A stretch of 42,876 bases of DNA from Syntrophobacter sp. SbD2 (GTDB lineage: Bacteria > Desulfobacterota > Binatia > UBA9968), in contig CAMDBU010000031.1 of assembly GCA_945889495.1 (NCBI GenBank), positions 1-42,876 of the forward strand. The letters run 5' to 3'. A model generated the notes under the pieces. That model saw only the letters and a list, made by a program, of their open reading frames with translations, ran no database searches and was not told the DNA's origin. This document shows, one piece after another, positions 6,068 to 11,482 of the stretch. The position numbers were made by a program, and so were the translations under genes. Position 1 is the stretch's first letter. Each line of letters starts with the position of its first letter.

Positions 6068-6268
6068 GAACGAAAACCTCCAAATTAATTCCGCGGCCGT
6101 GGTCAACACCAAACCGCTCAATACTCATATCGAAATGCGCGCGAATTATCCACGGTCGCCCGACCGTTACTCTATCGACAAAAAGATTCAGCCTTGGCCA
6201 TGAACCCAATCTTGACAGCCCGTCATGGCGGTGAAATAAGCGAGTCCAGTGCAGCACCGGAGGAAACC

Positions 6269-7528
6269 ATGTTCTTCAAGCAATTATTCGATCCGACTTC
6301 ATCCACCTATAGCTATCTCATCGCCGACGACGAGACCCACGAGGCGGTGTTGATCGATCCGGTGATCGAGCAGGTCGAGCGCGACTTAAAGCTGATCCGC
6401 GACCATGACCTGACATTGAAATACGTTTTGGAAACCCATGTCCACGCCGATCACATCACCGCGTCGCGGGCGCTCAAAGAAGCCACCGGCGCGCAGACCG
6501 CGGTGTGCCAGGACTGCCACGCCCAAGGTTACGACCGCATGCTCGAAGACGGCAACGTGGTTTTGTTCGGCCGCGAGGAGATCCTGGTCATCGCAACGCC
6601 GGGCCATACTTCCGGCAGCGTTTCTTACCTCTGGCGCGACCGCGTCTTCACCGGCGACACACTCTTGATCGGCGGCTGCGGCCGGACAGATTTTCAATTG
6701 GGCAGCGCCGCGGATCTCTGGCAGAGCATCAGCGAAAAATTGTTTCGCCTCGACGATCAAGTGCTGGTTTATCCCGGCCATGACTACAAAGGCCGGCGGG
6801 TGAGCAGCATCGGCGAGGAAAAGCAATTCAACGCCCGGTTGGCGGGGAAAAGCCGCGAAGAATTTATCGACATCATGAACAACTTGAATCTGCCCATGCC
6901 GGCGCGCATCCAAGAGGCGGTGCCGGCCAATCTCGCCGGCGGCGCCAGTCTCCCGCCGTCGGAAGGCGCGCGCAAGCAAGTGGCCACGGGTGGCGCGGCC
7001 CACTTGCGCAGCGTGTCGGCGCAGCAGTTGGCCGTACTCGCGACCGCGGAGAAGTTGGCGATCCTCGACGTGCGCACTCCCGGCGAGTTCGCCAGCCTGC
7101 GCATCGCCGGCTCGATCAATATTCCCTTCGAACGGCTCGATCCGCCGGCGCTGCTATCGCGCTTTGCCACCGACGCGGCGCTCTACTGCATTTGCCAGAC
7201 CGGCACGCGCAGCCAGTTGGCCGCCGACCGGCTGCGCGCCGCCGGCTTCACCAACGTCGTCCATGTCGACGGCGGCACCAACGCCTGGAGCTCGGCGAAG
7301 CTGCCGTTAGAACGGGGCGAGCGCAACGTGATGTCGTTGGAGCGCCAGGTGCGCATCGCCGCCGGATTGCTTTCCGTCATCGGCGTTATTTTTGGCGCGG
7401 CGATCCATCCCTTGGGCTACCTGCTGCCGGCTTTCATCGGCGCCGGCCTAGTCTTCGCGGGGATCACCAACAGCTGCGGCATGTCCATGGTCCTGGCCCG
7501 GATGCCGTGGAATCAGGCGAGCGCGTAA
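6269..7528 (+). CDS. persulfide dioxygenase-like MBL hydrolase fused to rhodanese and DUF2892
   Basis: 419 aa from the ATG at 6269, preceded by GGAGG. Domain 1 (about 1-240) is a metallo-beta-lactamase fold of the ETHE1/Blh type with HVHADH (H57, H59, D61, H62) and GHTSGS. Domain 2 (about 255-355) is a rhodanese with the active loop C309-QTGTRS. Domain 3 (about 365-419) is a DUF2892 membrane hairpin, as in the YgaP sulfurtransferase. Known relatives oxidise glutathione persulfide to sulfite, and the fused rhodanese handles sulfane sulfur. The membrane tail would hold the enzyme at the inner face of the membrane. Role inferred: sulfide/persulfide detoxification. Confidence 0.9.
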   Translation: MFFKQLFDPTSSTYSYLIADDETHEAVLIDPVIEQVERDLKLIRDHDLTLKYVLETHVHADHITASRALKEATGAQTAVCQDCHAQGYDRMLEDGNVVLFGREEILVIATPGHTSGSVSYLWRDRVFTGDTLLIGGCGRTDFQLGSAADLWQSISEKLFRLDDQVLVYPGHDYKGRRVSSIGEEKQFNARLAGKSREEFIDIMNNLNLPMPARIQEAVPANLAGGASLPPSEGARKQVATGGAAHLRSVSAQQLAVLATAEKLAILDVRTPGEFASLRIAGSINIPFERLDPPALLSRFATDAALYCICQTGTRSQLAADRLRAAGFTNVVHVDGGTNAWSSAKLPLERGERNVMSLERQVRIAAGLLSVIGVIFGAAIHPLGYLLPAFIGAGLVFAGITNSCGMSMVLARMPWNQASA

Positions 7529-10173: not shown

Positions 10174-10488
10174 ATGGCCCTAATAGACGAAATCGCAGAA
10201 AAAATTCGAGACCACCGTTTTGAGTTTTCTAAACATGCCGTTGATTAAAGTATTATTCGCAAGATTACTGTTCGGGAAGTGCGGGAAGTATTCAGTGCCG
10301 CCGAAATCATTGAAGACTATCCCGATGACAAATACGGCCCAAGTTGCTTGATATTTGGCAAGACCGCTTCAGGGCGAGCGTTACATGTGCAGTGTAGTTA
10401 CCCATCGAGACCATTGGTAAAAATCATTACTCTGTACCAACCCGATTTAGAACGTTGGGTAGATTTTAAAATGCGGAGGCAAAGATGA
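10174..10488 (+). pseudogene. DUF4258 (RelE-like toxin) gene interrupted by TAA
   Basis: From ATG 10174 the frame reads 24 codons (ending SKHAVD), a TAA at 10246-10248, then continues to 10488. The part after the stop, with VREVFSAAEII, DYPDDKYGPSCL and HVQCSYPSRP, is a standard DUF4258 sequence. DUF4258 proteins are small predicted toxins paired with YgiT/MqsA-like antitoxins, as here. A GTG at 10279 could restart translation and give 69 residues, but the N-terminal helix would be missing. A single C-to-T change (CAA to TAA) would explain the break. The stop overlaps the antitoxin start (ATGA). Confidence 0.8.
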
Positions 10489-10703
10489 ACCAGAAACAAG
10501 ACAAGTTAATCCCACGTCGCGTGACCTACACTCTGGAACATGAAGGTAAATTTTACATCGTCGAGAATGTCCCCGCACGGGTCGACGAAGAGACCGGAGA
10601 GCAGTTTTTCTCTCCAACGACTGTTGAGCGTTTGCAGCAAGTGATTTCTGGAAAAGAGCCCAACCGTGTGATTGCCACACCAGTCTTTACCTACGCGGAA
10701 TAG
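10485..10703 (+). CDS. YgiT/MqsA-like antitoxin lacking zinc cysteines
   Basis: 72 aa. The pattern VTYTLEHEGKFYIVENVPARV followed by D-ETGEQF matches the YgiT-type domain, in which two CxxC pairs normally bind zinc (the second normally reads C--CGE). Here the N-terminal pair is absent and the second is replaced by DEETGE, so no zinc site remains. The end (ERLQQVIS) is the usual helix. The start overlaps the DUF4258 stop, giving the toxin-antitoxin layout. The antitoxin appears intact while the toxin frame is broken. Confidence 0.75.
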   Translation: MNQKQDKLIPRRVTYTLEHEGKFYIVENVPARVDEETGEQFFSPTTVERLQQVISGKEPNRVIATPVFTYAE

Positions 10704-11011: not shown

Positions 11012-11446
11012 CTAATTCTTCTTCCCCGGCTCGGCCTGGTAACCTTCCTCTTTCCACTTACTGATCGGACAAAACACCGTGCTTTGGAAACCCATCTCTT
11101 CTGCTAGCTTCGCAGCCTGCGAGCTTGATTGTCCGGAGCCTCAGGTAAATACGATATAAGTGTCCTTGGCGATTTTTTTAAGATGGCCCTCAAGCTCTGG
11201 CAGCGGGATGTTGATCGCACCGGGGATCGTTTCCTTTTGGAACTGCTCGGCGGCGCGCACGTCGATGATCAGCATCCGGCCTGCTGCCATTTCTTTCTTA
11301 AGGTCGTCGGCCGGTTTCTGCCTGGCGCCCACCGCCCACTTAGTGTTGGGATCGACCGGATAGCGCCGCTCCGCCTGGGCGGCGAATAGGGACGTCGTCG
11401 ACAAGACCAGCGCCAGCCAACTGGCAACGGTGAATATTGATTTCAT
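11012..11446 (-). CDS. exported rhodanese with in-frame TGA at the catalytic Cys (candidate selenoprotein)
   Basis: Start ATG 11446 follows GGAGGG. The protein has a signal peptide (MKSIFTVASWLALVLSTTSLF), then a rhodanese domain with IIDVRAAEQFQKETIPGAINIP. The reading reaches YIVFT and meets TGA at 11143-11141, codon 102, exactly where the catalytic Cys of VF-C-GSGQSS belongs. The frame then stays open for 42 codons with normal rhodanese sequence (GSGQSSSQAAKLAEEMGF, then WKEEGYQAE) to TAG at 11014-11012. Read through, the product is 144 residues with one selenocysteine. An 8-bp stem-loop begins 15 bases after the TGA. The alternative is a simple Cys-to-stop mutation; nearby genes show other stop mutations. 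Confidence 0.6.
11106..11125 (-). promoter_or_regulatory. possible bacterial SECIS stem-loop
   Basis: On the minus strand AGCTCGCA pairs with TGCG-A-AGCT (one bulged A) around a GGC loop at 11117-11115. The loop lies 23 bases after the TGA. Bacterial SECIS elements have a short apical loop with G in its first two bases, about 16-37 bases after the UGA; this hairpin meets that rule and resembles the GCAGGUCUGC tip of Escherichia coli fdhF. A stem of this size can also occur by chance in GC-rich DNA. Confidence 0.4.
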
Positions 11447-11482
11447 GAAACCCTCCATTCCCAGTACTCTGAGATTATGTTC

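Follow-up and report, generated by a model that had tools for sequence, protein, structure and literature searches.

The window analysed here, a stretch of 42,876 nt of the Syntrophobacter sp. SbD2 genome (contig CAMDBU010000031.1, positions 1 to 42,876), carries on its minus strand a small rhodanese gene interrupted by one in-frame TGA. The gene and its elements are listed in the direction of reading, with the gene itself first:

11012..11446 (-): rhodanese gene, 144 codons including the TGA read-through, identified by Pfam, an AlphaFold model and PDB matches
11451..11456 (-): Shine-Dalgarno-like GGAGGG, read from the sequence, 4 nt upstream of the ATG
11446-11444 (-): start codon ATG, preceded by GGAGGG
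11141..11143 (-): in-frame TGA, codon 102, at the place of the catalytic cysteine; motif FT-U-GSGQS (UxxG)
11106..11125 (-): SECIS-like hairpin AGCUCGCA-GGC-UGCGAAGCU, 8 pairs with one bulged A, -7.7 kcal/mol
11012..11014 (-): true stop codon TAG

The TGA lies in the catalytic position of an otherwise intact rhodanese

Read through the TGA, the protein is MKSIFTVASWLALVLSTTSLFAAQA-ERRYPVDP...DTYIVFT-U-GSGQSSSQAAKLAEEMGFQ..., with one internal stop and no frameshifts. Residues 46-125 match the rhodanese domain PF00581 (E 9.9e-18, 64.9 bits, exceeding the membership threshold of 22.2 bits), and residues 1-25 were judged by eye to be a likely signal peptide, cut after AQA; the protein is thus probably exported. 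The AlphaFold model has a pLDDT of 94-98 over residues 41-140 and retrieved many rhodanese chains from the PDB with Z scores of 12-17, and the protein is accordingly predicted to adopt the rhodanese alpha/beta fold. In the model, residue 102 sits between strand 97-101 and helix 106-117, a rhodanese-like placement. A standard annotation would cut the protein at residue 101, with loss of the active site.

In an alignment of 23 sequences the TGA falls in the column of the catalytic cysteine, in which the other 22 rows show C or UGA and, in a single case, R; distant homologues with 26-34% identity have C or UGA at this place. The first-pass annotation had described a single TGA exactly at the catalytic cysteine of an intact rhodanese, followed by 42 conserved codons, and both statements hold: the TGA is the sole internal stop of the gene, and exactly 42 conserved codons separate it from the TAG. 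The Cys/Sec pairs that it proposed to look for among close homologues are seen as C or UGA in the distant relatives but not in the sole close orthologue, which has CGA (Arg).

The same annotation had pointed to other stop mutations nearby as signs of gene decay. This was not confirmed. The neighbouring genes (HpaB, a metallo-beta-lactamase/rhodanese fusion, two substrate-binding proteins, DUF4258, MmgE/PrpD and TctC) are open and most have domain matches, no broken neighbours were seen, and a scan of the whole window returned no other ORF that is open on either side of one internal TGA. Gene decay was rejected on these grounds. Two neighbours deserve mention in their own right. The fusion at 6194-7528 (+) is a metallo-beta-lactamase/rhodanese/YgaP-like protein with a normal cysteine, about 4 kb from the candidate selenoprotein gene, and the DUF4258 protein at 10279-10703 (+) overlaps a 72-aa partner in a toxin-antitoxin-like arrangement.

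The genome encodes the complete selenocysteine machinery

The genome surveyed for sel genes is a draft of 5.64 Mb in 239 contigs with 95.6% completeness. All four of selA, selB, selC and selD, whose presence in the same genome had been proposed as a check, were found. The selA, selB and selD genes are consecutive on one contig (C26) and score above curated cut-offs; selC (tRNA-Sec) is above the Rfam cut-off with 73 bits, 95 nt and anticodon TCA. Among related genomes, 51 of 58 have selA above cut-off. The selD gene of Syntrophobacter sp. SbD2 has an in-frame TGA of its own, at SAG-U-AAKLG. It can fold a GGUC-CGGGU-GACC hairpin, with the loop letters of the hairpin in two genes for DedA-like proteins considered below (L049, L052).

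A SECIS-like hairpin follows the TGA

As expected for a bacterial selenoprotein, a hairpin with a small, guanosine-containing loop lies downstream of the TGA. It begins 15 nt past the TGA, and its GGC loop (11117-11115) begins 23 nt past it, in agreement with the distances claimed for this stem-loop at first reading. Random positions in the window yield an equally stable hairpin under loose SECIS rules in about 12% of cases (10.6% at -8 kcal/mol, 14.2% at -7 kcal/mol). With about 1 in 8 such positions matching, the shape by itself carries little weight.

The apical core is more telling than the shape: GCA-GGC-UGC in the window nearly equals that of E. coli fdhF, GCA-GGUC-UGC, a sequence verified in E. 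coli genomes. The chance of the strict core GCAGG(N)CTGC/GCAGGYTGC within the 13-position range is about 0.0003, and that of a looser form in the same range about 0.016, both for comparisons made after the sequences had been seen. An Rfam search of the whole window and of the hairpin region with E up to 10 matched no family. Global folding of 57 nt starting within the TGA region preferred a different minimum (z +1.3); in this alternative fold some pairs involve the UGA, a codon that would be inside the ribosome. No formate dehydrogenase (TIGR01553) of the genome scores above cut-off, which removes this family as a SECIS control.

The sole orthologue carries CGA and an identical hairpin

A single orthologue was found, in a genome of the same family (G005, record JAHKKJ010000411.1, labelled Deltaproteobacteria bacterium). 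No further ones were detected in 148 genomes of the class or a 395-genome sample of the phylum, nor in a GTDB pattern scan, viral contigs or plasmids, where the best plasmid match had 34% identity. The G005 protein shares 65% identity with that of the window, and its gene reads CGA (Arg), a single transition away from TGA, where the window gene has the TGA. The orthologue group holds no Cys/Sec pair, since its only other member has CGA.

Between the two genes dN is practically equal on the two sides of the TGA (0.18 upstream, 0.19 downstream), while dS is saturated. A search for random stops or frameshifts downstream or nearby, named beforehand as an observation that would count against selenocysteine, turned up none. 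The hairpin is identical letter for letter despite the saturation of synonymous sites elsewhere: hairpin codons 108-114 are unchanged in 7 of 7 cases, compared to 38 of 85 conserved-residue codons elsewhere (hypergeometric p 0.005). The linker from TGA to hairpin differs at residues 104, 106 and 107. This combination of an identical hairpin and saturated synonymous sites points to a recent loss of the Sec codon in G005. From these two sequences we infer as the simplest history Cys (TGY) to TGA to CGA, in which G005 would recently have lost Sec while retaining the hairpin. The TGA/CGA pair with its unchanged hairpin offers a testable case of Sec-codon loss.

Selenocysteine insertion compared with alternative explanations

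The UGA is very probably a Sec codon because it occupies the place of the catalytic cysteine in a genome with the full machinery. The earlier reading of Sec in place of the catalytic cysteine is supported by the sel genes, by the Cys/UGA column of the homologues and by the lack of decay. We therefore predict with high confidence that the window gene encodes a selenoprotein with Sec at the rhodanese active site, a claim that the CGA of G005 keeps short of certain. That codon is also the starting point for the alternative of a young pseudogene, in which an ancestral CGA (Arg), as in G005, underwent a C to T transition to a stop truncating the protein at residue 101. One transition separates the two codons, and G005 has 13 codons, this one included, that a transition of this kind would turn into a stop; the odds of hitting the catalytic site by coincidence would thus be about 1 in 13 rather than 1 in 144. 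Nor is CGA tellingly rare, making up 20% of the Arg codons on the G005 contig. This scenario nevertheless requires a Cys to Arg change in an otherwise conserved rhodanese and then a stop, with an enzyme devoid of its catalytic residue kept for a long time, whereas the route from Cys (TGY) via TGA to CGA is shorter. It leaves unexplained the identity of the hairpin at synonymous sites and the fdhF-like core, and neither the gene nor its neighbours show further decay. We consider a pseudogene unlikely.

A sequencing or assembly error, the real codon being TGC, TGT or CGA, is conceivable in a draft of 239 contigs where a single base is decisive. It would have had to strike precisely the catalytic codon of a gene that shows no other error-like break and that happens to have a SECIS-like hairpin suitably placed downstream, and appears very improbable. 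A change of the genetic code, with UGA read as an ordinary amino acid in this genome, has next to no probability. Nothing turned up in its favour, TGA terminates 19 of the 39 long ORFs in the window, the very use as a common stop that speaks against such a change, and the only role seen for a TCA anticodon is that of tRNA-Sec.

Proposed mechanism

For a selenoprotein at this locus, we infer selenocysteine insertion, export and a sulfur-transfer reaction. SelB would bind the hairpin 16-35 nt downstream and bring Sec-tRNA to UGA codon 102, and the ribosome would continue for the remaining codons to the TAG. The protein would be exported via the Sec (general secretory) pathway and then fold as a single rhodanese domain, with U102 in the loop U-G-S-G-Q-S between the strand and the helix described above. 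Its selenol may accept sulfane sulfur from thiosulfate, persulfide or polysulfide, forming a selenenyl-sulfide, and the sulfur would be passed to a thiol or other acceptor. We know of no study measuring what a rhodanese gains from selenium in place of sulfur, although our search was not exhaustive.

Relation to known rhodaneses

Rhodanese selenoproteins were reported earlier in the Sargasso Sea and GOS surveys (PMC1088965, PMC2398784), and five forms have been distinguished, numbered 1 to 5, with the motifs UxxS, UxxG, CxU, UxxG and UxxxxU (PMC13188914). Because of its UxxG motif the window gene belongs to these already described Sec rhodaneses. It resembles form 2, 'rhodanese-related sulfurtransferase' (PF00581/COG0607; PMC13188914), in having a single rhodanese domain with a predicted Sec at the catalytic place and UxxG; we provisionally assigned it to this form, for which MBM9537886.1 is the listed example, by the motif U-G-S-G together with a COG0607-type single domain. 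It differs from form 2 in its likely signal peptide and in having one known orthologue, and that one with Arg.

The form 3 family NF041203 (rhodanese_LYCAU) shares the rhodanese domain and is described as a (seleno)protein, but its CxU motif is absent from the window rhodanese, which scores 30.8 bits against a cut-off of 115. The best NCBIfam match is PspE (NF007627), the small periplasmic rhodanese of E. coli, likewise a small exported single domain; however, PspE is a Cys enzyme and the score of 48.6 bits falls short of the cut-off of 102. With both scores under cut-off, assignment to either equivalog was rejected.

Predicted Sec rhodaneses in the lineage

A cousin family with the motif LY-U-ACPHHLAS or LY-U-QCPRHLAS was found in 23 of the 148 class genomes, spread over three families (L071, L022, L067-L088). 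In all 23 genomes its members have exactly one TGA, always at the catalytic place, and a conserved downstream hairpin whose loop lies 22 nt past the TGA (CCA-GUY-UGG) with the CA-GNY-UG tip of the window hairpin. In 13 of the 23 a QueC-like gene comes directly after it. This genome has a copy as well:

G000:C42:10048-10431 (-): LY-U-AC rhodanese L071, motif UxC

Like these cousins, the window rhodanese is small, its Sec is predicted at the corresponding catalytic position and its SECIS-like tip resembles theirs, but identity is only about 30%, and the cousins have a UxC motif and often stand beside the QueC-like gene. The UxC form is absent from the five forms in PMC13188914, and two LY-U-AC members reached about 60 bits against the cut-off of 115 of the CxU family NF041203. 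One genome (G003; L050, L068) has a TGA-containing LY-U-AC rhodanese and no full selA in the draft, probably owing to an assembly gap.

Judged by these predicted genes, it is usual for this group of bacteria to have Sec rhodaneses. A literature search for selenoproteins in Binatota found nothing. The window gene would contribute a further Sec rhodanese from a lineage that has received little study and in which enzymes of this type prove common. A broader proposition, which we regard as evenly balanced, is that the lineage uses selenium widely in rhodaneses (UxxG, UxC, CxU on DedA-like proteins, and two types in which the Sec stands later in the loop) and that the window gene at the same time shows a Sec codon being lost, with TGA in one genus and CGA plus an intact hairpin in another.

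Further candidates were noted among rhodanese domains of the lineage. L049 and L052 have YCS-U-PNEATSA in a DedA-like membrane protein with a rhodanese domain, together with a strong hairpin whose loop CGGGU lies at about 20 nt. In the rhodanese domains of L047 and L055 the in-frame TGA stands further along the active-site loop (YCNDYQ-U-DL and YCAGPT-U-PL).
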